Source: Pseudomonadota bacterium | Lineage (GTDB): Bacteria > Pseudomonadota > Alphaproteobacteria > SP197 | Reading direction: 5' to 3' | Assembly (NCBI GenBank): GCA_039028155.1 | Contig: JBCCIS010000037.1 | Coordinates: 1 to 48,371, forward strand | Length of the DNA stretch: 48,371 nucleotides | Shown here: positions 5,558 to 33,221 of the stretch, in pieces | Numbering within the stretch: the stretch's first letter is position 1 | Layout: every line of letters begins with the position of its first letter | Notes under the pieces: model-generated | Database searches by the model: none | What the model saw: the letters and a program-made list of their open reading frames with translations, nothing else | Told to the model about the DNA's origin: nothing | Program-made: the position numbers and the translations under genes

Positions 5558-5931
5558 CGTTCGCCAGTACCGACCATCATCAACCGGTGATGCAGCTGCG
5601 CACCGATGGCATCGTCCTTGCGGTCGCCGTCGATGACCTTGACCGGCAACGTCGCGGTGCTCTTGGTAGCAGGCCCGAATCGAAACTCGCCTGTAGGTGT
5701 GCAACAGCCGGAAAGTTCAGCGTGAGATCCGGTTCGGCCACCGCGCCGTCCTGCTGCTTCAGGGATTGTCGTTCATGCGCCGGCCATTCTTGAGACAACT
5801 GCTCCAACGCGCGGGAAGCCTGCTACGACGGTTACTGCAGGCGCGCAATCACTGCGGTACTGGGACATGCGCGCGGCAGTTGTCAGGTCATGGGGAAGCC
5901 CAGCTCTTGCACGCTTGGACGACGACCTCTG
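5558..5931. other. Convergent intergenic region, no gene seen
   Basis: This 374-base stretch lies between the ends of the dimethylformamidase operon and the OmpA-family gene. Open frames across it are Arg/Cys-rich and show no recognisable family. I found no clear Rho-independent terminator. Confidence 0.45.
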
Positions 5932-6639
5932 TCAGTTCGTCGCGTAAAGGATCTCTACCCGCCTGTTCGCCTGCCTGGCATCAGGTAAGTCACGACCTTC
6001 CGCATCTTGTTCTGCGACAAGGGGTTCATCCGCGCCGACGCCGGAGACTTGGAAGTCGACGTCACCCAGGCCACCTTGACTGACCAACCAGTCTCTGACG
6101 GCCATCGCGCGGCGCAGCGATAGGTCCTTGTTGTAGGCGGCTGTACCAATGCCATCCGTGTGTCCGACGATCGTAACCGACGTCGCACCCGATTCCCGAA
6201 TCATCGCCGCGGTTTCCGTGAGATACGCCTGGGCTGCGCCGCTAATCTCCGCAGAGTCGAACGCAAACAACATCTCCGATGACATGCTGATCATCGCGGT
6301 CCCATCGAGACGCATGATGATGCTGCTGCCCGGGACAATATAGGGAAGGCCGGTGCGGTCGTAGCACTGGGTGCTCTCGACCGTAACGGGGGTATGGTCG
6401 TCCAGATGGGTGTAATCGAACACCTTGTGGCAATCGAAACCGGCGGCCATCGAGCCATAGTTGTAACCGCGCCAGTTGGTGTGCCCGCGTCCGGTCCCCA
6501 GCCCATAGCCGTACGAACCACTGTTGCCGTAGGTCGACCAGGAGATGACCTTGGTTTCGTCCGATGACGCGACCGCCGGCAAGAAAAGAAGCGAAACAAG
6601 CCCTGCCGCAAAAGACATGGAAAGACGTTTCATCATCAT
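5932..6639 (-). CDS. OmpA-family outer-membrane/periplasmic protein
   Basis: A 235-residue secreted protein with a C-terminal OmpA-like peptidoglycan-binding domain. Residues 1-25 form a signal peptide (MKRL, hydrophobic run, then PAVASS). A Gly/Tyr-rich middle region (YGNSGSYGYGLGTGRGH) has no assigned fold. The OmpA domain starts at LFAFDSAEI and holds the binding residues in GHTDGIG and in QANRRVEI near the C terminus. It anchors the envelope to peptidoglycan. Three consecutive ATGs at 6639, 6636 and 6633 follow a GAGGA ribosome site; the first or second is the likely start, and the longer upstream frame is not supported. It is unrelated in function to its catabolic neighbours. Confidence 0.85.
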   Translation of the reverse strand: MMMKRLSMSFAAGLVSLLFLPAVASSDETKVISWSTYGNSGSYGYGLGTGRGHTNWRGYNYGSMAAGFDCHKVFDYTHLDDHTPVTVESTQCYDRTGLPYIVPGSSIIMRLDGTAMISMSSEMLFAFDSAEISGAAQAYLTETAAMIRESGATSVTIVGHTDGIGTAAYNKDLSLRRAMAVRDWLVSQGGLGDVDFQVSGVGADEPLVAEQDAEGRDLPDARQANRRVEILYATN

Positions 6640-7028
6640 GACATCCTCATGAACGCGAGCCCCAAGACCGACACGAACAATGACGCTGGTATCGGCAGGC
6701 ACGTTGCAGGTCGACCGCGGTCGGACCAGATGCTGAACAACACATTGTCCGGCACGTCGTCCGGGCCGACGTCGATCACACACGCCTATCCAAAATCTTC
6801 AATGAGGCACACGTCAAAGTCCAGGTGTAGCGTACCGGACAGGGGCATCTCATAGGAGGTAGAGCCTCTCAATAGGGCTAAGATTTGGCCACCTGTGGCA
6901 ACTCAGAGCGATCGCCCTCCCCCACTGCGTTGGTTCACCGTCTGCCAGCGCGGACGCAATGGCCAGTCATTGGGTTGACAGTGCACTGCGTCATGGCCCC
7001 ATCGACGTGGATCAGCACCGGCATCTGA
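6640..7028. other. Intergenic region before DUF917 relic, no gene seen
   Basis: A 389-base stretch upstream of the OmpA-family gene (minus strand) and of the DUF917 relic. No coding frame resembles a protein, including the missing N-terminal part of a DUF917 protein. The OmpA promoter must lie here. Confidence 0.4.
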
Positions 7029-7271
7029 ACTTCGATTGGTGTAGACGCTCTAGCTCTGCGCCTGACACAACCATATCTCGTAGACGGCATGATAGAAGTT
7101 GGCGGCACGGAAACGATCCGCTATGGCCAGCAAGTCACCATCCTGTCGCTGCCCGCCGCTTCGGAATTGACCACGGCAGACGCACCGTGCGTGGTCGGCC
7201 CGCGGGCCTTCGGCTATGACTTGGAGTATCAATCCCTTCACGGGGACGAGAACGGGAAGGACGCAGCATGA
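7029..7271 (+). pseudogene. C-terminal relic of a DUF917-family gene
   Basis: An open frame of about 80 codons with an in-frame TGA at 7026-7028 just upstream. Its sequence matches the end of DUF917 proteins: TIRYGQQVTILSLPA followed by VVGPRAFGYDLEY, which is the typical C terminus. Full-length DUF917 proteins are about 350-370 residues and usually precede a short hydantoinase/oxoprolinase-type gene, as here. The frame's stop overlaps the start of the downstream gene (ATGA at 7268-7271), preserving the translational coupling expected in an intact operon. The upstream 250 codons are missing. An ATG at 7089 would give a 60-residue peptide that may still be translated to couple the next gene. 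Recognition is from memory of the family. Confidence 0.55.
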
Positions 7272-8800
7272 AACGTATCGGCATCGATGTCGGCGGCACC
7301 AATACCGACGCGGTCCTGGTTGAAGACGACCAGATCGTCGGCTCGGTCAAGACGCCGACCACCGAGGACGTGATGTCCGGCATCACCGAGGCGCTCAAGC
7401 AGGTACTCGCCCAGACATCCGCCGACCCGCAGACGCTGGACGCCGTCATGATCGGCACCACCCACTTCACCAACGCGGTCGCCCAGCGGCGCGATGTCGG
7501 CAAGGTGGCGGCGATCCGCATCTGCCTGCCGGCCAGCGCGTCGCTGGAGCCGTTCATCGACTGGCCCGACGACCTCGCCGACAAGGTGCGCGGCGACATC
7601 GTCATGCTGCAGGGCGGCCACGAGTACGATGGTCGGCCCATCGCGCCGTTCGACGAGACCGGCATGCGCGAGGCCGCCAAGCGGATCGGCGATGCCGGTT
7701 ACACCGCCGTCGGCGTCACCTCCGTCTTCTCGCCACTGACCAGCGCATTGGAGGATCAGGCGGCCGCCATCCTGGCCGACGAATGCCCGGACATCGCGGT
7801 CACCCGCTCCAGCTCGCTGGGGCGCATCGGCCTTTTGGAGCGCGAGAACGCGACGCTGCTGAATGCCAGCCTGCAGGATCTGTCGAAGAAAACGACGGCG
7901 GCCTTCACCAAGGCGATCGAGACGAGCGGCATCAAAGCCCAGCTCTACCTGACCCAGAACGATGGCACTGTGATGCTGGCCGATGTCGCCGAGAAGTTTC
8001 CGGTGTTCAGTTTCGCGTCGGGTCCGACCAACAGCATGCGCGGCGCGGCCTTCCTGTCGAGACAGTCGAACGCCATGGTCGTTGATGTCGGCGGCACGAC
8101 GACCGATATCGGCATGCTGAAGGCAGGCTTCCCGCGCGAGGCCAACAACGTTGTCGAGATCGGCGGTGTGCGGACCTTGTTCCGCATGCCCGACCTTCTC
8201 TCTATCGCGCTGGGCGGCGGCACGCTGATCACGCGCGGCCCGCTCACCATCGGACCGGAAAGCACCGGTTACAGGCTGACCGAGCGCGGCTTGGTATTCG
8301 GCGGCGGCGACCTGACCGCGACGGACATCGCCGTCGCCGCCGGCCTGATCGACTTGGGCGATCCCTCACATGTCGGAAATCTGCCGAAGAACCTGGTCGA
8401 CGAGACCATGGCCGCCATGCGCGAGATGACCGCGGTCGCCATCGACCGCATGAAAACGGAAGCCGGCGACGTCCCGGTCATTGCGGTCGGCGGCGGCGCG
8501 TTCCTGGTGCCCGACAAAATCGCCGGTGTCAGTGAGGTCATCCATGTCGAGCACGGCGAGGTCGCCAACGCGGTCGGGGCGGCTATCGCCCAGATCTCAG
8601 GCGAATGCGATCAGATCTTCCAGGGACTTTCGCGCGAGGACGCCCTGGCGGAAGCGCGCCGCATCGCGGAAGAGCGCGCCGTCGAGGCCGGCGCGGATGC
8701 AGAGAGCCTGGAACTGGTCGAGGTCGAGGACCTGCCGCTCGCCTATATGCCCGGCAATAGCCTGCGCGCCCGCGTCCGTGTCGTCGGGGCTATTGCCTGA
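7268..8800 (+). CDS. Hydantoinase/oxoprolinase-family protein (HyuA-like, short form)
   Basis: A 510-residue protein of the hydantoinase A/oxoprolinase family, shorter than the roughly 690-residue HyuA because it belongs to the single-gene form linked to DUF917. It has the two ASKHA-type phosphate-binding loops, IDVGGTNTD at residues 5-13 and DVGGTTTDIG from residue 273, plus IGTTHFTNA and a C-terminal glycine-rich AVGGGAF. Related enzymes use ATP to open cyclic amides such as hydantoins or 5-oxoproline. The start ATG 7268 overlaps the stop of the DUF917 relic. No HyuB (hydantoinase B) gene follows; the downstream gene is on the opposite strand. The substrate is unknown. Confidence 0.85.
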   Translation: MKRIGIDVGGTNTDAVLVEDDQIVGSVKTPTTEDVMSGITEALKQVLAQTSADPQTLDAVMIGTTHFTNAVAQRRDVGKVAAIRICLPASASLEPFIDWPDDLADKVRGDIVMLQGGHEYDGRPIAPFDETGMREAAKRIGDAGYTAVGVTSVFSPLTSALEDQAAAILADECPDIAVTRSSSLGRIGLLERENATLLNASLQDLSKKTTAAFTKAIETSGIKAQLYLTQNDGTVMLADVAEKFPVFSFASGPTNSMRGAAFLSRQSNAMVVDVGGTTTDIGMLKAGFPREANNVVEIGGVRTLFRMPDLLSIALGGGTLITRGPLTIGPESTGYRLTERGLVFGGGDLTATDIAVAAGLIDLGDPSHVGNLPKNLVDETMAAMREMTAVAIDRMKTEAGDVPVIAVGGGAFLVPDKIAGVSEVIHVEHGEVANAVGAAIAQISGECDQIFQGLSREDALAEARRIAEERAVEAGADAESLELVEVEDLPLAYMPGNSLRARVRVVGAIA

Positions 8801-8846
8801 TTGATGTTTTGGAGATCTGCATCACCAGCCCGCAGCGGGACAACAC

Positions 8847-9248
8847 CTACTCCGGTGCGTTGTCCTCGGGCAGCGGCGGCTTGGCGTGCCACCACTCGTC
8901 GAAGCGGTAACAGAGATTATCTTCGTTCAGGAACACCTGATAAATGCCGTCGAAGCGAAGCCGTTCACCCGTCTCTTTCCAGGTCAGCGCTGCCCTCCAG
9001 CGGTTGATGCCATAGTCCTCGGTGACGGCGAGGACTTCATAGTCGAACGCGATATCCTCCTGCAGGCCGACCGCGCCCTTTTCCACATAACGGCGTATCT
9101 CGTCCTTGCCCTTCATGATCTTGTGGAAGGGCGTGTACATATAGGTGGCGTCGTCGGTGAAGAGCGCCAGCGTACCATCCGGATTCTGGTTGACCCACGA
9201 GCTGCCGTAAGCATCAAGCCACTGAGAAAACTTCTCGTTCGTAAGCAA
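8847..9248 (-). CDS. SnoaL-like / NTF2-fold protein
   Basis: A 133-residue protein with the NTF2-like cone-shaped fold pattern: an N-terminal helix (FSQWLDAYGSSWV), then DGTLALFTDDATYMYTPF, a helix around GKDEIRRYVEKG, and C-terminal strands ending in YRFDEWWHAKPP. Members act as small hydrolases, isomerases or ligand binders, and many have no known substrate. It starts with TTG at 9248, preceded by GGAGA six bases upstream; no ATG or GTG fits better. It converges with the HyuA-like gene (46 bases apart) and lies 195 bases downstream of the ureohydrolase-family gene on the same strand, so it could be a distal member of that operon. Confidence 0.75.
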   Translation of the reverse strand: MLTNEKFSQWLDAYGSSWVNQNPDGTLALFTDDATYMYTPFHKIMKGKDEIRRYVEKGAVGLQEDIAFDYEVLAVTEDYGINRWRAALTWKETGERLRFDGIYQVFLNEDNLCYRFDEWWHAKPPLPEDNAPE

Positions 9249-9443: not shown

Positions 9444-10421
9444 CTAGGTGGACCTGTCCTTCGCTTCTGCCAGGAGGCACAACTCTTCAAACATGATGTT
9501 GGCGGCGACCATTGCCGTGAGGTTACCCGGCTCCAGGGGAGGACAAATCTCAACCACATCCGCCCCAGCGAGATTCAGTCCACGGATACCATGCATCAGC
9601 TTGAGTGCATCGCGATAGCTCAAGCCGCCGGGTTCAAGGCCACCGGTTCCCGGAGCGACGGCCGGATCAAGCGCATCAACGTCAAACGTAAGGTATGTCG
9701 CATGGTCCTTGATGGCGCCAACCATGCGCGCTGTGATTTCCTGCGCTCCAAGATCCTCAAAATCGTCCATGTCGAAAATCGTCACGCCGGCGTCGCGTGC
9801 CCAGGCCAGTTCGTCGGCCTTGAACAGCGTTCCGCGGATACCGATCTGGAAACACAGGCGCGGCTCCAGCAAACCTTCCTCTATGGCGCGGCGAAAGACG
9901 GTGCCGTTGGCGACGTCGCGACCAAGCATGACGTCCTGGGTGTCGGAGTGGGCATCGATCTGGACAAGCGCCAACGGACCGTCTTGGGCAAGCGCGCGCA
10001 GGATGGGGAGCGTAATGGTGTGATCGCCCCCGGCGGCCAGCGGGCGCGCGCCGCAAGCGACGACGTCGGCAACGAAGGTTTCGATGGCACTCAGGCTTTC
10101 GTCGACATCCAACGAGTTGACAGGCGCGTCGCCGATATCGGCGACGCGGCAATGCTGAAACGGCGCCGTGCCGGTCGCATAATTGACCTCGCGGATCAGG
10201 CGCGACATTTCGCGGATCTCCGACGGGCCATGACGCGAGCCCGAGCGGAAGCTGGATCCCAAGTCGAAGGGCACGCCGAACATGGCGACATCCAGGCCCT
10301 CCGCAGTGCCTGATTGGGCAACGCGCATGAAGGTTGCGATGTTGGCGAAGCGCGGCACCGTGGCGACATCAGCCTGTTGTGTGTCGCGCGGTCTCGTGTT
10401 TTGCCCGCCAAGCTCCGTCAT
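9444..10421 (-). CDS. Arginase/agmatinase-family ureohydrolase
   Basis: A 325-residue manganese hydrolase of the arginase superfamily, which cleaves guanidino groups to urea and an amine. All six metal ligands are visible: His134 in GGDHT, Asp156/His158/Asp160 in DAHSD, and Asp247/Asp249 in FDVDALDP. SGSRHGPSEIR near residue 60 is typical of the agmatinase branch. The start ATG 10421 overlaps the SDR stop (ATGA), so the two are translationally coupled, and this is the last gene of an eight-gene operon. Candidate substrates include agmatine, guanidinobutyrate, guanidinopropionate or guanidine-type compounds. The TRAP importer and racemase-family genes upstream hint at an imported guanidino acid, but this is inference. 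Confidence 0.88.
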   Translation of the reverse strand: MTELGGQNTRPRDTQQADVATVPRFANIATFMRVAQSGTAEGLDVAMFGVPFDLGSSFRSGSRHGPSEIREMSRLIREVNYATGTAPFQHCRVADIGDAPVNSLDVDESLSAIETFVADVVACGARPLAAGGDHTITLPILRALAQDGPLALVQIDAHSDTQDVMLGRDVANGTVFRRAIEEGLLEPRLCFQIGIRGTLFKADELAWARDAGVTIFDMDDFEDLGAQEITARMVGAIKDHATYLTFDVDALDPAVAPGTGGLEPGGLSYRDALKLMHGIRGLNLAGADVVEICPPLEPGNLTAMVAANIMFEELCLLAEAKDRST

Positions 10422-11164
10422 TGCATGAACTCGCCGCCGTTGACGTAGAAGTTCGCACCTGTCGTGAATTCAGCACCCAACATACAGTCGACCATGTGCA
10501 TGACATCTTCAAACGTGCCCAACCGATCCATCGGCAGGCCGTCCAGCAACTTCTGTAATCCCTCGGGCGTGTCGAGCGCGTAGCGCTCGCGAACGTCATC
10601 GGTGCTGACGGCGGTCGGGATCAGGCAGTTGACGCGGATCCGAGGAGCCAGCTCTCGCGCCATACATTTGGTCAGCGCAATGACGCCGCCTTTCGCGCTG
10701 CAAAAGTTGGCACCGTTCAAACGCCCCTGGACACCGCAGGCCGCGCCCAGGTTGATAATGCACCCGGGATCGTCCGTGTTGTGCTTCAGGTACTCCTGCG
10801 AGCAGATGAAGGCGCCCTTTAGGTGGGTATCGATAACGGCATCCCAGCTTTCGTCCGTCAGGTCCAGAAACGACGCGTCGCGATTGATACCGGCTCCATT
10901 GATCAAGACATCGACACCGCCGAACGCGGCAAAGGCTTTGTCGAACATGGCGCGGACTTCGCCGCGGTTCCTGACGTCCGCCTCAACCGGTAGCACGCGG
11001 CCGGGGGCGCCCGTCGCCGCAATCTCGTCGGCCAGCGTCGCGCCTGTGCTGGCGTCGCGACAGTTCATCACGACATCGCGCCCGGCTGTCGCGAAGTGTT
11101 GCACCATGGCCGCACCGAGTCCTCGGGTTCCGCCTGTGATGACGACCGCGCGATCAACTGTCAT
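10418..11164 (-). CDS. SDR-family oxidoreductase with altered catalytic residues
   Basis: A 248-residue classical short-chain dehydrogenase/reductase by size and fold. The cofactor loop TGGTRGLG is at residues 10-17 and NGAGINRD at 89-96. The active site is atypical. The usual Ser is Ala141 (NLGAACG) and the usual Tyr of YxxxK is Phe154 (ANFCSAK), while Lys158 is kept; I checked the Phe codon (TTT) on the minus strand. It may therefore be a non-redox or structural paralogue, or use another chemistry. The start ATG 11164 lies 30 bases after dctM, and the stop overlaps the start of the ureohydrolase gene. Its nearest look-alikes are FabG-type reductases. Confidence 0.85.
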   Translation of the reverse strand: MTVDRAVVITGGTRGLGAAMVQHFATAGRDVVMNCRDASTGATLADEIAATGAPGRVLPVEADVRNRGEVRAMFDKAFAAFGGVDVLINGAGINRDASFLDLTDESWDAVIDTHLKGAFICSQEYLKHNTDDPGCIINLGAACGVQGRLNGANFCSAKGGVIALTKCMARELAPRIRVNCLIPTAVSTDDVRERYALDTPEGLQKLLDGLPMDRLGTFEDVMHMVDCMLGAEFTTGANFYVNGGEFMQ

Positions 11165-11194
11165 GGCATGCCTTTCGTCTTTGGGAGGTAGTCG

Positions 11195-12484
11195 TCAGTT
11201 GGCCACCGCGTAGCCGAGCAGACGGGGGATGAACAGGGTGATCTCTGGAACGTAGCTGATGACAAGAAGCGTCACCAACAACACCGCCAGGAACGGCAGC
11301 AGCGGCTTGAAGACGGCTTCGATCGGTAGCTTGCTGAGACCGCAGGCGACATAGAGGCAAACGCCCACGGGCGGTGTGAACAACGATATCGTCACATTTG
11401 CCGCGACAAAGATGCCGATGTGAATGGGATCCATGCCCAGCGCCTTGCCGGCTGGCACCAGAATGGGCATGAGAATGATGATCAACGGCAGCGCGTCCAT
11501 GATCATGCCCAGGGCGAAGAAGATGATGTTCACGCAGATGACGAAGATGATCCAGTTATCGGCGTTGGTGACGATGAAGTCGGCGAGATCGTGCGGGATG
11601 CGCTCAAAGGCGAGCGCGAACGAGAACGCCGAGGCCATGCCCAGGATCAGCATGACAATGCCGGTCAGCTTGGCGGCTTGCAGCAGCACGCCCGGCATGT
11701 CGCTCCACGTCAGTTCCTTGTAGACGAACAGCGAGACGATCAGACCGTAGACGACGGCGACCGCGGAGGCTTCTGTCGGCGTAAAGATCCCGCCCAGAAT
11801 ACCGCCCAGGATGATGACCGGCATCAAGACGGCAAGGCCACCATCGGCGAAGACGCGCGCCTTTTCTGCCCAGGTCGTCTGTTCGGTCACCGGCAGGTTG
11901 AGCCGCCGACCGTAGTAGTAGCACAAGGCCATCAGGGCGAGCGCGTTGACGACGCCGGGCAGGATACCCGCAGCGAACAGGCCGCCGATCGAAATGCCGG
12001 CGACGACGCCGATGATGATGAGGTCGATGGACGGCGGAATGATCGACGCGGTGGCGCCGGATGCCGCCAAAAGCGCTGTCGCGAACTCCTTGGGATACTT
12101 GCGTTTCAGCATCTCCGGCATGGTCGTCGAGCCGATGGCAGCGGTGTCTGCGCTGGCCGACCCGCACACGCCGGAAAAGAACATCGTAGAAAGAATGACG
12201 ACGAAACCCAGGCCGCCCCGCACCCTGCCGACAAAGACCAGGGCGAGATTGACGATCCGCCGCGCGATCCCGCCGTGACCCATGATCGTGCCGGCCAGAA
12301 TGAACAGCGGTATGGCGAGCAGGGTGAAGGAATCCATACCGGCAATGATCTTCTGGGGCAGAAGTACCAGCGAGTCGATCGACAGGTAGAACAGCGACGC
12401 CATTGCCGACAGCCCCAGGGCGACGGCGATGGGCACCGAGATGAACAGTGCCACGAAGAGCGTGATGGCGGCGATCGCGGCCAT
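11195..12484 (-). CDS. dctM: TRAP transporter large permease (DctM-type)
   Basis: A 429-residue integral membrane protein, the size expected for DctM, with about 12 hydrophobic segments. It is the ion-coupled transport channel of a tripartite ATP-independent periplasmic transporter. Recognisable segments include GMDSFTLLAIPLFILAG near the N terminus, GIFTPTEASAVAVVYGL in the middle and FTPPVGVCLYVACG near the end. I set the start at ATG 12484, seven bases after the dctQ stop; the longer frame to 12529 only overlaps dctQ and reads as an Arg-rich tail. It works with the small permease and binding protein encoded just upstream. The solute is unknown, and the operon suggests an amino- or imino-acid derivative. 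Confidence 0.93.
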   Translation of the reverse strand: MAAIAAITLFVALFISVPIAVALGLSAMASLFYLSIDSLVLLPQKIIAGMDSFTLLAIPLFILAGTIMGHGGIARRIVNLALVFVGRVRGGLGFVVILSTMFFSGVCGSASADTAAIGSTTMPEMLKRKYPKEFATALLAASGATASIIPPSIDLIIIGVVAGISIGGLFAAGILPGVVNALALMALCYYYGRRLNLPVTEQTTWAEKARVFADGGLAVLMPVIILGGILGGIFTPTEASAVAVVYGLIVSLFVYKELTWSDMPGVLLQAAKLTGIVMLILGMASAFSFALAFERIPHDLADFIVTNADNWIIFVICVNIIFFALGMIMDALPLIIILMPILVPAGKALGMDPIHIGIFVAANVTISLFTPPVGVCLYVACGLSKLPIEAVFKPLLPFLAVLLVTLLVISYVPEITLFIPRLLGYAVAN

Positions 12485-12491
12485 GGATCCG

Positions 12492-13013
12492 CTAGCCCCT
12501 GCTCGCCGTCTCGCCGGCGTTCGGGTCACCGGGTCCGTTGGCTATCTCACGCCATGCCGACTTGAGGATCTCGATCAAGATCAAAGCCGAGCCTGCGACG
12601 ATCGATGAATAGGGAATTTCCATCGGCATCTGCAGCGCGGGCGCCAGGTGCCCGGACACGCCGGATACGAAGATAACGCCGTAGTAGAGCAGGATCGCAA
12701 AGAAGGCGGCGCCGATGGCGTGAACCATGAGCCTGATCGCGTGCTGCAGACGCGCCGGCATTTGCTTGACCAGGATCTGCAGTGCGAAGTGTGACTTTGT
12801 CTTGAAGGCATAGGCCGCGCTCAGCATCGACAGCCACATCAAAAGAAACCTGGCCATTTCTTCGGACCAGGAAAGCGGCGTCTCCAGCACATACCGCGCC
12901 ACGACCTGGCTGAATACCACCGCCGCCAGGCCGACGAGAAGGGCACAGATGACAGTTTCGAGCGGATGGCGCACGGCAAGCCATACCGACTCCTGAACCG
13001 AGCGTTTGGTCAT
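12492..13013 (-). CDS. dctQ: TRAP transporter small permease (DctQ-type)
   Basis: A 173-residue four-helix membrane protein typical of DctQ. The second helix carries TPLSWSEEMARFLLMW, the family's conserved stretch after the first loop. It forms the permease complex with DctM. The start ATG 13013 has GAGGA upstream. A 157-base gap containing a strong hairpin separates it from dctP, while dctM follows after seven bases. Confidence 0.92.
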   Translation of the reverse strand: MTKRSVQESVWLAVRHPLETVICALLVGLAAVVFSQVVARYVLETPLSWSEEMARFLLMWLSMLSAAYAFKTKSHFALQILVKQMPARLQHAIRLMVHAIGAAFFAILLYYGVIFVSGVSGHLAPALQMPMEIPYSSIVAGSALILIEILKSAWREIANGPGDPNAGETASRG

Positions 13014-13080
13014 GGCGTCCTCGCTTTCGTCACGTCGCGGCGCACGGGGACTCTAGAATGCCGATCGGTGTATACGCAAA

Positions 13081-13134
13081 GTTGCCCGGCATCCGGACGG
13101 GTGCTGAGAGTCACCCGTCCGAACGCCGGCCAAC
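13081..13134 (-). terminator. Long hairpin between dctP and dctQ
   Basis: The inner stem is a perfect 10-bp inverted repeat, CGGACGGGTG at 13094-13103 and CACCCGTCCG at 13112-13121, with an 8-base loop. An outer stem pairs GTTGCCCGGC at 13081-13090 with GCCGGCCAAC at about 13125-13134 with one mismatch. There is no T-run, so it is more likely an mRNA-stabilising or attenuating element than a complete terminator. It sits 36 bases past the dctP stop, where it could allow more binding protein than permease to be made. Confidence 0.65.
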
Positions 13135-13170
13135 GTGCGCTCTCGCGCACGCCCCCTTCGAAACCAGGTC

Positions 13171-14157
13171 TTACTGGTTACCCACCTCTTCGATGACGGC
13201 CATGCCACCAACGCGCTCGGCATTGTTCTCGTAGACCGACGCGACCTTGGCGCGGAACTCGTCGAGGTCGACCTCGTTGAACTTGAGGCCCTTGGCCTCG
13301 AGCTCGGCCAACGCTTCGTCTGTCATGCTGGCCATGGCATCGCGCTGCACCTGCGTCGCGGTGACGGCGGCCTCGTGCATCTTGGCCTGAACGTCCTCGG
13401 GCAGTTCGGCAATGGCCTTGTTGCTGCACAGCAGGCCGGCGGCAAGATACATGTGGCCCGTCAACGACACGTACTGCGTGACCTCATAAAAGTTCTCGAC
13501 CAGCAGATCGACATGATCGGTCTCGGCACCGTCGATCACACCCTGCTGCAAGCTGGTGTAAACCTCGCCAAAGGACATAGGGGTCGCCTGCGCGCCCAGC
13601 GCGTTGAAGGTGTCGATCAGGACCGGGCTTCCCATCACCCTGATCTTCAGGCCTTCCATGTCGGCCGGCGTGTTGATCGGACGCTGGTTGTTCCAGGCAT
13701 TGCGCACGCCGGAGAACCACCAGCCGTAGAACTCCGAATCCAAATTCTCTTCGACCTTGCCGGCGACGTCGTCACCGATCGGCCCGTCGACAACGCGGTA
13801 GAAGTGATCCTGGTCGTCGAAGATGAAGGGCAGATTGAAAAGATCGGCCTCGGGAACAAACGGCGCCAGACCGCCGCCGGCGCTCTCGACGGCGCAGGTC
13901 AAGGTGCCCTGCTTCAACATCTGACTAGTTTCTTCCTCGCTGCCAAGCTGCTCGCTCGGGAAGATCTGGACTTCGACAGCGCCGTCCGTGCTCTCCTCCA
14001 ACGCCGCCTTGAACGCCAGCGCGCCATCGTGAAACGGATGCTGTTCGGGCGCATTGTGCGCGAGCTTCACGGTGTAATCCGCCGCACCGGCGCCGGTCGA
14101 CGTGGCCGCCGCAACGGCAAACGCCGCGACCGCTAGTGATCTGATAAAGTAACCCAT
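13171..14157 (-). CDS. dctP: TRAP transporter solute-binding protein (DctP-type)
   Basis: A 328-residue periplasmic binding protein of the TRAP family. Residues 1-26 form a Sec signal peptide (MGYFIRSL, Ala-rich core, GAGAADY). The mature N terminus, TVKLAHNAPEQHPFHDG, and the central GLKIRVMGSP are typical; the Arg of KIRV normally binds the solute carboxylate, so an organic acid or amino-acid-like ligand is likely. I chose ATG 14157 because GGAGG lies five bases upstream; an earlier GTG at 14169 falls on the ribosome site itself. It is preceded by the racemase-family gene (99 bases) and followed by the hairpin and dctQM. Confidence 0.93.
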   Translation of the reverse strand: MGYFIRSLAVAAFAVAAATSTGAGAADYTVKLAHNAPEQHPFHDGALAFKAALEESTDGAVEVQIFPSEQLGSEEETSQMLKQGTLTCAVESAGGGLAPFVPEADLFNLPFIFDDQDHFYRVVDGPIGDDVAGKVEENLDSEFYGWWFSGVRNAWNNQRPINTPADMEGLKIRVMGSPVLIDTFNALGAQATPMSFGEVYTSLQQGVIDGAETDHVDLLVENFYEVTQYVSLTGHMYLAAGLLCSNKAIAELPEDVQAKMHEAAVTATQVQRDAMASMTDEALAELEAKGLKFNEVDLDEFRAKVASVYENNAERVGGMAVIEEVGNQ

Positions 14158-14256
14158 TGATGCCTCCACGTTTTTGGCCGTTCTGGCGTGTGGGTATTCA
14201 CAACGCCACGTCTTGCCTGATCATCACCAACCCAAGGTCGTTGCTTGGTTCAGCGG

Positions 14257-15339
14257 TCAGTGGCTGATCGGCTCGTCTCGTTCGCCTCCCCAAATGTCGC
14301 CAACCGTAAATCCGTTGGGGAAGGGGTCGTCGGGATCAACGACGTACTGGGCCATCCCCGTGACCCAAGCACGACCCCGAATTGTCGGCACCACGGCGGG
14401 TTGCCCGCCGACCGTTTCTTCGCGCACCAAACGGCCCGTGAAGATCGTGCCGAGAATGCCTTCGTGATGAAAATCCTCGTTCAAGGCCAGCTCGCCCTTC
14501 GCGTGAAGCGCCGCCATCCTTGCGCAGGTTCCGGTACCGCACGGCGAACGGTCCAAGACGCCGGTCCAGGTCGCCGGCCGGTCCCAATCGAGTTGGCCGG
14601 TCGACACGACAACCGCGTTCTTGGCGCTGGCGCCTTCGGCCGTGGGCGAGCCGGTCATGACACAGATCGTGACGCCGGATACGTTCGGATTTTCCGGGTG
14701 CACGCAGGGCAGTTGCTCGCGCGCCGCAGCCTTTATCATCTCGCCGGCTCGGGTGATCTCGCCGGCCCTGTCGGGCTCGAGCGCGAGCCCGATCTTCTCG
14801 GCATCGGCAATGACATAGAACATGCCGCCCCACGCCACATCGACCTGGACGGGGCCGATCTCCGGCACATCGATCGTCTGGTTCAGGTGGGCCGCGAACG
14901 CGGGAAGGTTCTCGAAGGTGACGCCCTTGACCTTGCCGTCCGAGACCTCCGCTTGGACCGTGACCAGTCCGGCCGGCGCTTCCAGGGTCAACTCCGTCAC
15001 GGGCTCGGTGGACGGGACCATGCCGGTTTCAATCAACGCGGTCGCCACGCAGATGATGTTGGTTCCCGACATCAGCGGGTACTCGACTTGCTCCATGATG
15101 ACGAAGCCGGCGGCCGCCTTGGGATTGGATGACGGAAGGATGAGATTGCAATTGGCTGCCGGATAACCGCGCGGCTCGCGCAGCATGCGGTGGCGCAGGT
15201 CGTCGCCCTGGGCTTCAAGGAAGCACATCTTGTCGTACATCGTGTCGCCGGGCACATCCAACACGCCGCCGACGATGACACGTCCGGGCTCGCCGCACGC
15301 GTGCAGATCAATGGCTTGTATGACGCGTGAGAGCTTCAC
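14257..15339 (-). CDS. Proline racemase-family enzyme, Ser/Cys active-site type
   Basis: A 360-residue member of the proline racemase / 4-hydroxyproline epimerase / trans-3-hydroxyproline dehydratase family. The second catalytic Cys is Cys267 in [10 protein letters not shown]. The first position, Cys in MCGHG of racemases, is Ser91 in PLMSGTN. Ser/Cys members described so far include hydroxyproline 2-epimerases and trans-3-hydroxy-L-proline dehydratases. The start is GTG 15339, overlapping the aldo/keto reductase stop (GTGA), with GGAG about nine bases upstream; no ATG is available near the conserved [10 protein letters not shown]. Its place between a DapA-family lyase and a TRAP importer supports hydroxyproline-like or related imino-acid catabolism. 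No D-hydroxyproline oxidase is nearby. Confidence 0.85.
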
Positions 15340-16385
15340 GGCATGTCACTCCATGTCACCTGCGATTTCATCCAGTCGGCGGTGTTGTGGAAGTTGGCGA
15401 CGACGCTGCCCGGCGGCACCAGCTTGTCACAGGCCTCACGGATGCCGTCATCAAGGGGCATGTCGAGAAGCGGCAACAACAGATCGAGCTGCTCGACCGT
15501 GCGCGGACCGATAAGCGGCGCGGTGATGCCGGGCTGTTCCTTGACCCACAGAATGGCAAGCTGCGCCGGCGTCAGGCCGGCGTCCTCCGCCAACTTCGTG
15601 AAGCGCTTGCCGACCTCGATGCCGCGTTCGGTGACGCGGTCGGCATAGAAGCCGCCGCGAAGATTGGCGCGGGAGTTCTCCGGAAACGAGTCGGCGGACG
15701 TATAGCGTCCGGCCAGGACGCCCATCGCCATCGGCGCCCAGGTGATCAAGCCGAGCCCATGCTTCTGGCACATGGGCACCAGCTCGTTCTCGATACGCCG
15801 GTCGAGCAGGTTATAGGGTGGCTGCTCGGAAACGAAACGCGCGTAACCCTTCATTTCGCTGACCATGATGGCTTCCATGACAGCCCATGACGGGTGCGTC
15901 GAGGTGCCGATGTAGCGGACCTTTCCCTGGCGGACCAAGTCGGTCAGGGCGCCCAATTGTTCGTCCCACGGAATGTCGGGCGACGGGCGATGGATCTGAT
16001 ATAGGTCGATGTAGTCCGTCTGCAGCCGGCGCAACGAGTTCTCGCAAGCCTGGATGATGTTCAGGCGGCTGTGGCCGTGGTCGTTGGGCCCGAACAGCGC
16101 GGGATCGTCGACAGAGTATCCCGGCCGACGTTTGCCGTGATCCACCTTGGTGCCGATGATCACCTGATCACGGCGGCCGCTGGCCTTAAGCGCGCGTCCG
16201 ATGATCTTCTCGCCTTCGCCGTCGGCATAGACATCGCCTGTGTCGATCAGGTTGATGCCGGCATCGAGCGCCTTGTTCAAGATCACCGCGGCTTCGTCTT
16301 CCGGTGTGGGATCGGCGAAGTTATCGGTCCCAAGGCACAGGTTTGATACGTTGACTCCTGTACGTCCTAGTTTTCTGTATTCCAT
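15336..16385 (-). CDS. Aldo/keto reductase
   Basis: A 349-residue NADP-type aldo/keto reductase with the beta-alpha barrel fold. The catalytic tetrad is visible: Asp48 (LIDTGD), Tyr53, Lys80 (IIGTK) and His132 (YQIHRP). The N terminus [10 protein letters not shown] and the [10 protein letters not shown] segment near the C terminus (cofactor binding) are typical of the YghZ/potassium-channel-beta-like branch. The start is ATG 16385, without a strong ribosome site, 59 bases after the DapA-family gene. It overlaps the next gene by four bases. The likely role is reduction or oxidation of an aldehyde or ketone intermediate of the operon's pathway. Confidence 0.9.
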
Positions 16386-16444
16386 GATTGCCGTTGTTTA
16401 AATGTGCTGCTGAACCGGTTAACTGTTCGTCCTTCGCTGCGGTG

Positions 16445-17371
16445 TCATGCGGCGGCGTTTTGGCCTTCCCCGCTGGCAGGCATACACGACAAACGTTCGC
16501 GAATGAGATTAAGCGCGGCTGCGTGGTGATCGGACGGCAGTGGCAATCGCGGCGGCCTGACGACTTCGGAGCCCTTGCCCACCTCGGCCTGTACGAGTTT
16601 GATCAGCTGCACGAACTCCGGAACCGTATCGAGCCTGAGCAGCGGCAAGAACCAGCGATAGATCTCGAAGGCTCTCTCGGTCTCGCCCGCCGCAGCGAAG
16701 TTGAACAGATCCATCGTCTGTCGCGGCAGCGCGTTGACCAGGCCGGCAATCCATCCGCTAGCGCCCAAGGCGACAGCCTCGCAGACGACGTCATCGAGGC
16801 CGGCGAAGAGGCTCAAACGGTCGCCAGTAACCTCGCGAATGGCGGCGAAGCGACGCGCATCGCCGCTTGATTCTTTGACAGCAAGGAGATTGTCATGGTC
16901 GCCGGCAAGTTCAGCGATGTGTTTCGGCAGAATGTCGGTGCCGTAGGCCGTCGGGTTGTTGTAAACCATGCACGGCAGGTCGGTCGCTTCGATCGCGGCG
17001 CTGATATGCGCTTTCGTCTCGTGCCATTGGCCTTTGTAGACATAGGGCGGCAGGACCATGGCAGCCTGACAGCCGATGTCCGCCGCGCGTTTGACCAAGG
17101 CGACGGCCTCGGCTGTCGTCGCTGAAGCGATGGTCGCCATGACCGGCGTTTGCGTCCCCAACGCCTCGACGCAACTTTGAAAGACCGCGCACTTTTCGTC
17201 GAAGCTCATGGACGACCCCTCACCCAGAGAGCCGACAGGAACGATGCCCGCGATACCGTGCTCCGCTAGCCACACGACATGCTCTCTTAAGTAATCGTGA
17301 TCAATCTCAAAGTTGTCTTTGAATGGTGTGGTAATAGCTGGAATCACGCCGCGGAAATTGAAATCGTCCAT
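16445..17371 (-). CDS. DapA-family lyase/aldolase (dihydrodipicolinate synthase-like)
   Basis: A 308-residue Schiff-base (alpha/beta)8 enzyme. The catalytic Lys166 is in LLAVKESSG and the relay Tyr137 in CMVYNNP; the carboxylate loop is VGSLGEG (residues 46-52). The family includes dihydrodipicolinate synthase, keto-deoxy-sugar-acid aldolases and dehydratases, and pyrroline-4-hydroxy-2-carboxylate deaminase of hydroxyproline breakdown. The last is attractive given the adjacent racemase-family gene. I chose ATG 17371, preceded by AAAGGGGA; the longer frame to 17509 runs through non-conserved sequence. First gene of the eight-gene operon, divergent from an XRE-cupin regulator. Confidence 0.88.
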   Translation of the reverse strand: MDDFNFRGVIPAITTPFKDNFEIDHDYLREHVVWLAEHGIAGIVPVGSLGEGSSMSFDEKCAVFQSCVEALGTQTPVMATIASATTAEAVALVKRAADIGCQAAMVLPPYVYKGQWHETKAHISAAIEATDLPCMVYNNPTAYGTDILPKHIAELAGDHDNLLAVKESSGDARRFAAIREVTGDRLSLFAGLDDVVCEAVALGASGWIAGLVNALPRQTMDLFNFAAAGETERAFEIYRWFLPLLRLDTVPEFVQLIKLVQAEVGKGSEVVRPPRLPLPSDHHAAALNLIRERLSCMPASGEGQNAAA

Positions 17372-17787
17372 TTTATCCCCTTTTTCAATCTTCATTTGGC
17401 GCAGGCGAAACCGCACTTGAGAAGGGCTGCCGGTCTGCCCAAACGTTTGGCACGGCGTCCCAGGGTGCTGCCACGACACATGAACTAACATGGTAAATTT
17501 TATAGTCAATAGGAAAATTCAACAGCTAATGGGCAAACACTGTGACTAACGTGGGCAGCCTGTGATAACGCTGTGGTCGCATACCGAGCTACGCTTGCTG
17601 GGATCATCGGCCGAAGCCGGTCACGGCGTTGACAGCTGATCGACGCGATTGGCCGAGCAAAGGGGCAACATCACAGCGGCAGGACGACCCGGGCCGGCAA
17701 CGTGGGCTTGCGAGAACGTGTTACTGCCAAACGATGGGCGTGTAGGTGGAGCCGGTACGACATTGGACCGACCTTGAAAGAGCATTC
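17372..17787. other. Divergent control region of catabolic operon and XRE regulator
   Basis: These 416 bases separate the operon's first gene from the regulator and contain no convincing gene. The part from about 17490 to 17530 is clearly AT-richer than its surroundings, as expected for promoters. I could not fix a -35/-10 pair with confidence. Confidence 0.5.
17496..17519. promoter_or_regulatory. Candidate operator, AATTTT-N12-AAAATT inverted repeat
   Basis: A short inverted repeat with 6-base arms in the AT-rich patch upstream of the DapA-family operon. Its position fits an operator of the divergent XRE-cupin regulator. The arms are short and low-complexity, so chance is a real possibility. 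Confidence 0.25.
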
Positions 17788-18387
17788 ATGAAGAAGTACC
17801 GCCAGTCAGACAACAGGCCCAACCGGCCGAGCATCGGAGACCATCTCTACAGCCTGCGAAAAGAACGGAAGTGGACACAGAGCGAACTGGCGAAACGGTG
17901 CGGCATCGCCGTCTCAACCGTTTCGAAGATTGAGAATGGCCAATTGTCGCCGTCCTTCGAGACGCTTTTGCGCGTTGCCGAAGGACTATCGATGACGATC
18001 GCGGATCTTATGACCATCGATGCCTACGGCCAGCACCGGACTAGGCGGTCCTATACCCGCAATGGAGAAGGCGAGATCCACCATACCGACGTCTACGACT
18101 ACGAGCTTCTGTGCGGCGACATCAATGACAAGATCATGCACCCGCTGATCGCCAGGCTGAAGACCGACAGCGTCACCGAGTTTGGCGAACTCTTCTCTCA
18201 CCCCGGCGAGGAACTCCTTTACGTACTCGAAGGAGAGATTGAACTGCACACCGAACACTACAGGCCGCTACGGCTGTCGGTTGGTGATTGCGCCTATTAC
18301 GACAGCACCATGGGCCACGCGTGCATCTCAGTCGGCGAGAAGGAAGCCGTCATCTTTTGGGTCTCGACCACGACATTGCTGCCCTAG
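17788..18387 (+). CDS. XRE-family regulator with C-terminal cupin sensor
   Basis: A 199-residue transcription factor. Residues 17-71 form an XRE-type helix-turn-helix (WTQSELAKRCGIAVSTVSK, then IENGQLSPSFETLL). The C-terminal part is a cupin_2 sensor domain with the strand HPGEELLYVLEGEIEL and LSVGDCAYYDST. This architecture is common in regulators of amine and amino-acid catabolism such as PuuR, where the cupin binds the effector. The start ATG 17788 keeps the domain intact; a GTG at 17746 would add 14 residues and cannot be excluded. It is divergent from the eight-gene operon and probably controls it. Confidence 0.88.
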   Translation: MKKYRQSDNRPNRPSIGDHLYSLRKERKWTQSELAKRCGIAVSTVSKIENGQLSPSFETLLRVAEGLSMTIADLMTIDAYGQHRTRRSYTRNGEGEIHHTDVYDYELLCGDINDKIMHPLIARLKTDSVTEFGELFSHPGEELLYVLEGEIELHTEHYRPLRLSVGDCAYYDSTMGHACISVGEKEAVIFWVSTTTLLP

Positions 18388-20479: not shown

Positions 20480-22006
20480 TCACGCTCGGACCTTGCGATC
20501 GAAAACACGCGGCGGGATCAGCCAATCGTCATCGACGTCATGGTCGGGCCAAACGCGCCCAAGCTTTCTTGGCATGCCGCCCGGTGTATAGAACGCAAGG
20601 CCTGGGCTCGCGACGAGGATGGGTACGGCAAGACCGTTAAAGTTCAGTTCGAAGTGGTACCCGGACTTCACAACGACAAAGTCCAGACCGGCAATGGAAA
20701 CGCCCTGGCTCTCGAACGCATTGGGATCGTGGCTGAAGGCGGGGCTCGACGAAATGACGATGGCCAAACGGTCATCGACGGTTACCAGGGCCGAGGGACC
20801 CATGGAGGTCGCCTCGCCTTCCTGATAGGGGCCGCGCATCTGAAACCGACCATCGGTGAGGTTCGTGACGGTTCCGGTAACGTCGAGCGGCGAAAAGCCC
20901 GGCGTCATGTTACCACCCAGTGACAGCGTCACGGCGGCGCCCAGCCCGGCCGCCCGCGCGGCCTGCACGGCCGACGGATCGGTCACCGGGAAAGCGGCCT
21001 TGAACGGATAGTCGTGATCAAGCGTGGCCGCAAGAATGCTCGTGCTGTCGCCGGGCGCGCCGGCGAGGACACGGTCACCCATGTCGGCGATGACGAACGG
21101 CAGCGCGCCACCCGGCCTATCGGCGCTGATCGTATCGAGGGCATCATCAATCGACACGTAATCGTCGACAAACTCCCCTCGCCGCTCCCAAAACGTCGTC
21201 GCCAGTTCCGACGCGATCGTCATTGCCGCCGGCTGCGTTTCGTGCGTCAGGACGACGGCGGCCTGGCCGATGTCCGGCGCATCCAAAAAACGAAAAGCGT
21301 TGTAGAGGGTGATATCACGGACATGCGGATCGGATGCGACCATGTCCTTTGCCCGCTGATGCATGTCCGAAAGCGGCGGTTCTGACGTCCCGTTCTTGCC
21401 GGGAAGCAGCATGCGCGTCTTGGCCATGGTCATGACCGGACGAAGCCGGCCGTGCAACACGTCCAACACCAATTGCGCCACGTCGTTGCCGCAGTCAACG
21501 ACATCGGAGTGGGGATTTTCCTTACAGGCTATACAGATATCAGCCGCACCCAACATGCGCGGCGTGATATGCGCGTGGAGGTCAAGCCCGACTCCGATGA
21601 CAACATCGCCCCCTGCCGTTTCACGCAGGCTCTCCAGGAATACGCCATCCGCGTCATTGGCCTCGGTGGTCGCCATGGCGCCGTGCAGCTCGATCGCTAT
21701 GGCGTCGGGACGTTCCCGCTCGATGGCGCGAATCCATAACACAAGGGTGTCGCTGAAGAAGTTGTGATCCACCGGACCGCTTGGCGCCGTGGCGGCCGCG
21801 TGCACGGGGACAAGAGCCGCACCGGCCGCTTCGAGTGAGGCCACGATACCGCTGAGAGTCGTACCTGAACGCCGGCAGGATGTCAGGACGTCATCACCAA
21901 AGTGCACGTCAAAGTCAGCCCCCGGCGTTGGAATGGGATTGTACCCATTGGACTCGTGAAAAAAGCGTCCAACCATGATGCTGGGCGCCGATCCGGAACG
22001 TCCCAT
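20480..22006 (-). CDS. M81-family metallopeptidase (MlrC/microcystinase C-like)
   Basis: A 508-residue protein of the M81/MlrC family, named after the enzyme that finishes degradation of linearised microcystin in sphingomonads. Most relatives occur outside microcystin degraders and have unknown amide substrates. Zinc ligands can be assigned by spacing: Asp142 and His144 in LDLHAHI and His166 in ENPHSD, equal to the +2 and +22 spacing in MlrC. HESN at 17-20, ELHGAM at 106-111 and the C-terminal SGYHFELNF are family marks. The start ATG 22006 has GGAG upstream. It is probably co-transcribed with the downstream Tat-exported binding protein and lies divergent from the Rieske oxygenase. Confidence 0.88.
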   Translation of the reverse strand: MGRSGSAPSIMVGRFFHESNGYNPIPTPGADFDVHFGDDVLTSCRRSGTTLSGIVASLEAAGAALVPVHAAATAPSGPVDHNFFSDTLVLWIRAIERERPDAIAIELHGAMATTEANDADGVFLESLRETAGGDVVIGVGLDLHAHITPRMLGAADICIACKENPHSDVVDCGNDVAQLVLDVLHGRLRPVMTMAKTRMLLPGKNGTSEPPLSDMHQRAKDMVASDPHVRDITLYNAFRFLDAPDIGQAAVVLTHETQPAAMTIASELATTFWERRGEFVDDYVSIDDALDTISADRPGGALPFVIADMGDRVLAGAPGDSTSILAATLDHDYPFKAAFPVTDPSAVQAARAAGLGAAVTLSLGGNMTPGFSPLDVTGTVTNLTDGRFQMRGPYQEGEATSMGPSALVTVDDRLAIVISSSPAFSHDPNAFESQGVSIAGLDFVVVKSGYHFELNFNGLAVPILVASPGLAFYTPGGMPRKLGRVWPDHDVDDDWLIPPRVFDRKVRA

Positions 22007-24537: not shown

Positions 24538-24810
24538 ACCCACATCATTGGTAGGACGTTTGGCGATGGCCAAGCGTGACTGCGGACCACAGCTTCACAA
24601 AGAACTCGCCGCGATCGCATAAGGCCTCGTGGCTGATTGCTTGCCGGCATCCGCTAACATCACGGGCGATGCTTGGCATTGTCTTCCGGCGAAGCGTCCC
24701 TCGGTCACTTGACCAGCCGCGAGCAGGCGGGGTTTCTGGGGAACGCAAGCGTCCGAACGCCACTCTCGAAGACCGACAAGATTGCAGCGAATACATGTGA
24801 GGATGTCTTG

Positions 24811-32216: not shown

Positions 32217-33221
32217 ATGCAAGCTCTTGAACGCCTGAGTTTTAGTCGGTCGCTGTCGCGTGCGCCGCAGCACCCCAGTGGCCTGGACACTGCCGTCAGA
32301 TACTGCCTTCCCAGCGGCCTTGGCGAAGGCTACGAGGATGGTTTCGCCATCGAAGACAGCTGCTTGCTCACGACAAAACAGGTCAAGATTCGGCAAGGCT
32401 TCGAGGAGACCGAGCCCGGCGCCGGCCGACTGGTCTTCGTCTTTCACTTGAGCGGCGGTCGAACGGTCGAGATTCCGGGCGCCTCGCGTCACACACTGAG
32501 CTTGCCGTGTTTCGTCGCGTACCACCATCCCGCAGGCATTGCAAAAACGAACGTCTGGGACCGCGGCGGTTGGGACACCGGCGTCACGATCGGCTTCGAT
32601 TGCGACGATCCGCCATCGGAGGTGAAGCAGCAGCTCCCAGCACTGACACGGACGATTGACACCGCCTTGGACGAGAGCGCGGAGTTCACCTGGTTTCAAA
32701 GCCCGCTGACGCCTGAAATGGAAAGCGTTGCCGGACAGCTCCTGGCGCCCAACATTCATCCAAATCTGTTACGCGACTACATCTATGCAAAATCCAAAGA
32801 GCTGCTGGTGTTGGGCCTGGACAGCATTCTCAACGACCACCAGCAACGCCCGGAAAGTCCCGAGTCGATTCGTGAGAAGATCAAGGCCGCCAAGGTGATT
32901 CTGGACGAGAACACCCGCGATAAGATCGGCATCGGCATTCTCGCCGAAGAACTCGGCATCGCACCCGCCACGCTCTCCAAACAGTTCATGGAGACTTTTG
33001 GCCTGACGATTCACGAGTACGCGACAGAACGGCGCATGACCAAAGCCGTCCACATGCTTGTCGCGACAGATCTTTCGATGAAGCAGATCGCTTACGAAGT
33101 CGGCTACAACCACACCTCTAACTTCTGCCTCGCCTTCAAGCGGCGCTTTGGCGTCACGGCCCGGCGCGCACGCTTGGAGGGCAGAGGAGCCGAGCCGAAG
33201 GACGGTAACGCGCGCGGCTAA
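32217..33221 (+). CDS. AraC-family transcriptional regulator (second paralogue)
   Basis: A 334-residue regulator of the same subfamily as the protein at 23518. Shared landmarks are GEGYEDGFAIEDSCLLTTKQV in the sensor half and MKQIAYEVGYNHTSNFCLAF in the second DNA-binding helix pair. The first helix-turn-helix is GILAEELGIAPATLSKQF. The start ATG 32217 has GTGAGG upstream. It is divergent from the ABC importer operon and overlaps the converging amidohydrolase by four bases, so it probably controls one or both. Confidence 0.9.
   Translation: MQALERLSFSRSLSRAPQHPSGLDTAVRYCLPSGLGEGYEDGFAIEDSCLLTTKQVKIRQGFEETEPGAGRLVFVFHLSGGRTVEIPGASRHTLSLPCFVAYHHPAGIAKTNVWDRGGWDTGVTIGFDCDDPPSEVKQQLPALTRTIDTALDESAEFTWFQSPLTPEMESVAGQLLAPNIHPNLLRDYIYAKSKELLVLGLDSILNDHQQRPESPESIREKIKAAKVILDENTRDKIGIGILAEELGIAPATLSKQFMETFGLTIHEYATERRMTKAVHMLVATDLSMKQIAYEVGYNHTSNFCLAFKRRFGVTARRARLEGRGAEPKDGNARG

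Follow-up and report, generated by a model that had tools for sequence, protein, structure and literature searches.

Among the described members of the proline racemase superfamily, a Ser/Cys enzyme acts as a 4-hydroxyproline epimerase and a Ser/Thr enzyme as a trans-3-hydroxyproline dehydratase, and some members of one cluster are promiscuous for both activities (PMC4113996). The Ser-Cys dyad was still listed as being of unknown function in 2015 (PMC4364671), and the proline-racemase-like PaLhpL has been named as the enzyme most likely to combine dehydratase and epimerase functions on trans-3-hydroxyproline (PMC5144071). An enzyme called AcnX (LhpI) dehydrates 3,4-dihydroxyproline in vitro, about 300-fold more slowly than cis-3-hydroxyproline (PMC5144071). 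Here we describe an operon of eight genes, all on the minus strand, at positions 9444-17371 of a 48,371-nucleotide stretch of alphaproteobacterial DNA (contig JBCCIS010000037.1 of assembly GCA_039028155.1; hereafter, the window). It combines a proline-racemase-superfamily enzyme (ProR) with a DapA-family lyase, an aldo/keto reductase (AKR), a protein of the short-chain dehydrogenase/reductase (SDR) fold, an arginase-family protein (ureohydrolase) and a tripartite ATP-independent periplasmic (TRAP) importer, DctPQM. The operon is probably an unusual enzyme set around a familiar hydroxyproline-breakdown core, accompanied by an importer. Judging from its sequence relationships, it would convert a hydroxylated imino acid of the proline type to alpha-ketoglutarate by way of Delta1-pyrroline-4-hydroxy-2-carboxylate (Pyr4H2C) and alpha-ketoglutarate semialdehyde, as a catabolic pathway. 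We give this reading a probability of about 0.62, a figure that covers the conversion of a hydroxyproline-type imino acid to alpha-ketoglutarate as a whole and not its single steps.

The probable hydroxyproline-type core

The hydroxyproline route is favoured because the DapA-family lyase of the operon (16445-17371, minus strand; Pfam DHDPS) groups with the DapAs of trans-4-hydroxyproline-type operons. It scores under the cut-off of the dapA model TIGR00674 (176.1 vs. 206.15) and is 52-57% identical to the DapAs of four loci, two of Deinococcus, one of Granulicella and one of Gemmatirosa (57% for the Gemmatirosa enzyme, 52% for that of Deinococcus deserti). Each of these loci is also annotated with genes for a proline-racemase-family enzyme, for flavin dehydrogenase subunits and for an aldehyde dehydrogenase (ALDH), except that those of Gemmatirosa were recognized by eye, its flavin genes being confirmed by search. 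In a tree of 23 DapAs, the enzymes of hydroxyproline operons and those of our operon and its counterparts in related loci (hereafter, cassettes) stand together (support 85/95, or 97/96 with the DapA of the related locus L041), away from the four other DapA-family proteins of the genome. By sequence and tree placement, the lyase is thus predicted to be of the Pyr4H2C deaminase type of the DapA superfamily. The window holds a second, distant DapA-family gene (38270-39217), whose product is 26% identical to the operon DapA.

ProR (14257-15339, minus strand; Pfam Pro_racemase) shows Ser91, Asn94 and Cys267 in the alignment, which bears out a preliminary description of this DNA, made from the sequence alone, that had placed it among the Ser/Cys members of the proline racemase family. 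The same pattern is found in all 85 rows of the ProR tree, including L049 and L056, which were missed by the first motif pattern and then shown to have the Ser..Asn motif. The best NCBIfam model for ProR is that of trans-3-hydroxyproline dehydratase (NF047722; 361.9 vs. a cut-off of 550), and the 4-hydroxyproline epimerase model NF010578 gives 263 (cut-off 376). No other place in the genome exceeds the PF05544 cut-off, the second one scoring 21 bits against a required 27. ProR is predicted to be a (hydroxy)proline 2-epimerase, a 3-hydroxyproline-type dehydratase or both.

The importer is complete, with the solute-binding protein DctP (13171-14169), the small permease DctQ (12492-13013) and the large permease DctM (11195-12529), all on the minus strand and each recognized by its Pfam family, while DctP and DctM also exceed the cut-offs of TIGR00787 and TIGR00786, respectively. 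In the proposed pathway, DctPQM would import the compound and ProR would then either invert C2, as a 4-hydroxyproline 2-epimerase, or dehydrate the 3-hydroxyl. A cyclic imine, most likely Pyr4H2C, could arise in one of three ways: the SDR, which lacks its catalytic Tyr (see below), and/or the AKR might replace the usual flavin D-hydroxyproline dehydrogenase, using NAD(P); a 3,4-dihydroxylated proline might be dehydrated directly, which would make oxidation unnecessary; or an unlinked flavin oxidation might follow the epimerase. The DapA-type enzyme would open and deaminate Pyr4H2C to alpha-ketoglutarate semialdehyde, from which an ALDH would form alpha-ketoglutarate; three relatives carry an ALDH gene next to the cassette, and the window does not.

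Conservation of the cassette

The eight same-strand genes and the two four-base overlaps noted in the preliminary description, AKR/ProR at 15336-15339 and SDR/ureohydrolase at 10418-10421, agree with the coordinates and with Pfam, every best match lying far over its gathering score. The remaining gaps are of 59 (DapA/AKR), 87 (ProR/DctP), 157 (DctP/DctQ), -38 (DctQ/DctM, as called) and 30 bases (DctM/SDR).

Relatives of ProR were collected from genome contigs by a two-row profile search. Of 264 loci, the best 80 were kept (65-86% identity to the window), and their neighbours were scored by tblastn with the window proteins (identity cut-offs: AKR and ureohydrolase 60%; SDR, DctP and DctM 55%; DapA 40%). 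In 15 of the 80 loci, ProR is immediately preceded by an AKR at or above 60% identity. These loci are six contigs titled Proteobacteria (L037-L042), L054 and eight other Acidobacteriota contigs (L088, L090, L094, L095, L096, L101, L103 and L110), the latter eight being near-copies that were counted as one lineage. With the window, these loci make up 16 cassettes; a first AKR/SDR pair in L042 was left out of this count, and L081, where the AKR (59.8%) lies downstream of ProR, was classed as non-cassette. Among the 80 loci, the SDR was found in 11, DctP in 14, DctM in 12, DapA in nine (L064 included) and the ureohydrolase in two (L037 and L041), and thus a neighbourhood search for the racemase-ureohydrolase pair, as proposed in the preliminary description, finds it conserved in three genomes, that of the window included.

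Gene coupling is conserved as well. The four-base AKR/ProR overlap also occurs in L037, L038, L040, L041 and L042 (one base in L039), and that of SDR and ureohydrolase in L037 and L041. The proteobacterial order is AKR-ProR-DctP-DctQ-DctM-SDR-ureohydrolase, and the acidobacterial one is AKR-ProR-SDR-DctQ-DctM-DctP-DapA, with the DapA missing in L110 and with the SDR followed by DctP-DctQ-DctM in L054. As the contigs of L038, L039 and L040 stop inside DctQ, DctM and DctP, respectively, the presence of a ureohydrolase is not visible there, and L042 shows neither TRAP genes nor a ureohydrolase in the 3 kb available past ProR. On the 85-row ProR tree, the cassette label requires at least three changes, possibly one gain and two losses. 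The set of AKR, ProR, SDR and TRAP genes thus recurs in Proteobacteria and in two Acidobacteriota lineages, with its order reshuffled. The other 65 ProR loci have no single common context, and this ProR subfamily consequently also works outside the cassette.

A DapA of any type was seen in 12 of the 16 cassettes. That of L037 is 50% identical to the DapA of a Peteryoungia hydroxyproline-type locus, and that of L041 is closest to the solved 2hmc, 4mpq and 5czj, which have a hydroxyproline role. The L039 contig opens with the end of a DapA directly upstream of the AKR (57% to that of L037 over 90 residues), and none was seen in L038 and L040, whose contigs are cut off downstream. An ALDH, searched with three queries, lies near the cassette in only three of the 16 (L037, L041 and L054). 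The one in L041 is divergent, beside the cassette, and shares 44-47% identity with its counterparts in the Deinococcus and Granulicella operons, and that of L054 is 66% identical to the ALDH of L064, a short contig with ProR, DapA and ALDH in a row. Upstream of the acidobacterial cassette, in L088 (around 3800-8900) and similar loci, there are OCD-family, EutB/threonine-dehydratase-like, symporter-like (by eye) and M28 peptidase genes.

The aldo/keto reductase and the Tyr-less SDR

The AKR (15336-16385, minus strand; Pfam Aldo_ket_red) keeps in the alignment the Asp, Tyr, Lys and His of the AKR tetrad, and its best solved relatives are DON 3-epimerase (chain D) and other AKRs. The SDR (10418-11164, minus strand; Pfam adh_short) departs from its family: all 12 cassette SDRs have Ala-Phe-Lys in place of the Ser-Tyr-Lys triad of classical SDRs. 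In these 12, Phe stands for the catalytic Tyr and His for the Asn, with Lys and the Gly-rich motif retained. Ala takes the place of the Ser in each of the 13 aligned proteins, which include a paralogue of L042 (Ala-Tyr-Lys). The solved 3osu, aligned to the window SDR, has the canonical residues. The change from Asn to His is unremarkable by itself, since a solved (3R)-hydroxyacyl-CoA dehydrogenase likewise has His at this position. These losses are conserved across phyla (window, L037, L041, L054, L088, L090, L094-L096, L101, L103 and L110), together with a Cys in a GAAC/GAPC stretch. A structure model of the SDR was too poor for use (pLDDT 56.5).

A search of the literature on Tyr-less SDRs brought up a eugenol synthase (PMC1991597) and a Plantago reductase (PMC6172241), and gave no match for imine reductases in this connection. 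A Tyr-less SDR might handle an imine, because a protonated imine needs no Tyr acid. No relatives of the cassette AKR and SDR were found in 384 other genomes of the class at E-values of 1e-90 and 1e-60 (the best five AKR and seven SDR candidates per genome being scored), and both look rare by this measure. At L042:1056-2855, a second AKR (67%) adjoins an SDR that keeps its Tyr (48%), apart from ProR, and the pairing of AKR with SDR may be a module used repeatedly.

Weighing the alternatives

Several observations speak against a hydroxyproline route. We know of no hydroxyproline pathway in which the AKR or the SDR has a place, and thermodynamics disfavours the oxidation of a prolyl amine with NAD(P). 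ProR stays below all the NCBIfam cut-offs compared. The DapAs of Leisingera and Peteryoungia hydroxyproline-type loci fall outside the cassette clade of the DapA tree, so that several DapA types must serve such loci. There is no DapA in the gap-free sequence between DctP and the next gene of L110, and none in 14 kb of L042; these absences and the partial DapA of L039, which speaks for the hydroxyproline route, weigh against each other. Neither the window nor the eight other acidobacterial cassettes gave a hit with the three ALDH queries, and the genome of the window holds only distant relatives of the L064-type ALDH (25% identity at best). The ligand class of DctP could not be read from its solved relatives either: the model has a pLDDT of 67, and structural comparison returned many TRAP binding proteins (at most 32% identity among the 50 matches listed) that bind many ligands. 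Finally, the best matches to flavin enzymes elsewhere in the genome reach 26% for one type and 36% for the Peteryoungia FAD oxidoreductase (at G000:C64), and the latter means that the pathway may be an ordinary one with an unlinked gene.

This last explanation, a usual trans-4-hydroxyproline pathway whose flavin and aldehyde dehydrogenases are encoded elsewhere while the AKR, SDR and ureohydrolase have side activities, is the strongest of the alternatives, although we consider it unlikely. The DapA type, as placed by the tree, suits it, a Ser/Cys epimerase has a precedent (PMC4113996), and besides the flavin oxidoreductase just mentioned there are 13 ALDH-like places in the genome. By contrast, seven flavin-enzyme queries detected no flavin D-hydroxyproline dehydrogenase in any of 17 loci (the window, the 15 AKR-bearing loci and L064), several of them short contigs (L038, L039, L040 and L064 are under 9 kb). 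All eight control loci were positive, five of these being sources of the queries and three independent (L073, L089 and L135), and one of the five sources, L034, was positive only with its own query. Furthermore, an ordinary pathway leaves unexplained why the AKR and the Tyr-less SDR have been retained side by side in the cassette across phyla.

A more novel possibility is a route that dispenses with flavin and serves a hydroxylated proline, perhaps a 3,4-dihydroxylated one. ProR might dehydrate 3,4-dihydroxyproline to Pyr4H2C, or the SDR without Tyr and Ser might interconvert prolyl amine and imine with NAD(P), and the ureohydrolase without its His would then have a new substrate. We regard this specific form as doubtful. 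No catabolic pathway for 3,4-dihydroxyproline was found among the open-licence titles and abstract openings consulted.

A third explanation, and a decidedly improbable one, starts from the ureohydrolase (9444-10421, minus strand; Pfam Arginase), which the preliminary description took as a sign of a guanidino substrate. The substrate would be an imino acid bearing a guanidino or amidine group, from which the ureohydrolase would remove urea or ammonia before the racemase, AKR, SDR and DapA act. The protein scores just over the cut-off of TIGR01230 (185.7 vs. 174.3) and under that of NF002564 (264.8 vs. 302), and its best solved relative is the 3-guanidinopropionase 3nip. Its metal ligands H134, D156, H158, D160, D247 and D249 and the catalytic Glu291 are identical in all 14 aligned proteins. 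The orthologues of the window, L037 and L041 are 67-75% identical and coupled to the SDR by the four-base overlap. Nevertheless, no ureohydrolase was found in the nine acidobacterial cassettes, which have AKR, ProR, SDR and DctP, and this lowers the guanidino reading. Moreover, the conserved active-site His of the HG/HA motif is Asn172 in the three cassette orthologues and His in the 11 other arginase-family proteins aligned (seven of them paralogues, from 17 other places in the genome), and the GTPE/GVPE-type motif that follows is GGLE in the three. The genome scores above the arginase-family cut-off at 18 places, so that the presence of such a gene says little for growth on guanidino compounds. 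With the DapA also pointing to the hydroxyproline route, the guanidino proposal of the preliminary description is not upheld. In our reading, the ureohydrolase truly belongs to the proteobacterial version, though in an accessory capacity, and its active site is altered; a side-substrate with a guanidino or amidine group is possible in that form.

The ureohydrolase family is strikingly expanded in the genome of the window and in its order, where 16 genomes have 5-19 arginase-family matches each; any match was found in 202 of 385 genomes of the class (the best six or fewer candidates per genome being scored). In the Pararhizobium locus L146 (5004-10939), a speB relative of the ureohydrolase lies near a gene annotated as 5-guanidino-2-oxopentanoate decarboxylase, and this locus is likely a true guanidino pathway.

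Still less probable is a sugar-acid pathway, in which the AKR and SDR would be polyol or uronate dehydrogenases, the DapA a 2-keto-3-deoxy acid lyase and ProR a bystander, with the TRAP system importing a sugar acid. AKR and SDR families often act on sugars, sugar-acid routes too pass through alpha-ketoglutarate semialdehyde, and the structural relatives of DctP include a sugar-acid binding protein. However, this reading is lowered by the clustering of the DapA with hydroxyproline-operon DapAs and by the coupling of AKR and ProR, whose four-base overlap is repeated in five related loci, and the loss of Tyr and Ser in 12 of 12 SDRs also argues against it. Chance adjacency, which the preliminary description would have accepted had conserved clustering been absent, is rejected as extremely improbable because, although 65 of 80 ProR loci lack an AKR upstream, the set recurs in lineages that stand apart on the ProR tree, with reshuffled order and conserved overlaps.

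Genomic surroundings

The source genome is a 5.3 Mb draft in 118 contigs, with a completeness of 97.4% and a contamination of 4.2%. Upstream of the operon, and divergent from it, a gene at 17746-18387 (plus strand) codes for an XRE-cupin regulator (HTH_3, Cupin_2), which its position makes a candidate for controlling the operon. Scans for Rfam families and tRNAs gave no matches in the window, promoter-like sites in the window do not exceed the chance level, and 11 terminator-like sites were observed, with 6.6 (standard deviation 2.3) expected. Amide-type hydrolases of several families abound in the window, with a hydantoinase-A family gene, three amidohydrolases, an M81/MlrC family gene and a DMF-amidase-like gene, these genes lying at 7268-8800, 24673-26196, 33218-34606, 46719-48224, 20480-22006 and 3326-5557.

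Comparison with known systems

If the hydroxyproline reading is right, the operon represents a further catabolic gene set for hydroxyproline-type imino acids, present in distant phyla and easily mistaken for miscellaneous reductases beside a C4-dicarboxylate transporter. It would also raise questions of enzymology, namely how an SDR functions without Tyr and Ser and an arginase-family protein with Asn for its conserved His, and it cautions that a ureohydrolase gene is no proof of a guanidino substrate. The preliminary description knew of no described pathway with the full set, and no description of it was found in the open-licence literature consulted; in the main text of PMC4113996, for instance, "short chain" does not occur, nor does any word that starts with "aldo" or "agmatinase".

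Taken singly, the parts have closer counterparts. 3-Guanidinopropionase and guanidinobutyrase are the closest solved ureohydrolases and the metal ligands are kept, but the cassette orthologues have Asn for the conserved His and GGLE for GTPE. AcnX offers a chemical precedent, as its dehydration of 3,4-dihydroxyproline leads to a 4-hydroxylated Delta1-pyrroline-2-carboxylate; however, it is of another enzyme family than ProR, and the passage of PMC5144071 on this reaction describes no pathway.

The trans-3-hydroxy-L-proline pathway consists of a dehydratase and a Delta1-pyrroline-2-carboxylate (Pyr2C) reductase. It resembles our system in that the best NCBIfam model of ProR is that of its dehydratase, that L054 has an OCD-type Pyr2C reductase over the NCBIfam cut-off (363.4 vs. 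322) and that a relative in Rhizobium adjoins an Ldh-family oxidoreductase. By contrast, ProR scores far under the cut-off of that model, its dyad is Ser/Cys instead of Ser/Thr or Cys/Thr, and the pathway needs no DapA. Pfam identifies no Pyr2C reductase among the eight operon genes, a role that the SDR or the AKR could possibly take.

The trans-4-hydroxyproline operon is the system with which the comparison goes furthest. The preliminary description had held that hydroxyproline pathways explain some members, and this stands for the placement of the DapA and the family of ProR, but it does not extend to the flavin dehydrogenase and the ALDH, which were not found in the window. For this reason, we do not file the operon as a member of the hydroxyproline-to-alpha-ketoglutarate pathway. 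Both systems combine a proline-racemase-family enzyme with a DapA of the same type, and L037, L041 and L054 have an ALDH beside the cassette. Unlike the trans-4-hydroxyproline operons, the cassette loci lack a detectable flavin D-hydroxyproline dehydrogenase and add an AKR and a Tyr-less SDR, joined in three proteobacterial genomes by a ureohydrolase. Additionally, the cassette uses a TRAP importer, whereas ABC-type transporters are named in the clusters of PMC5144071.

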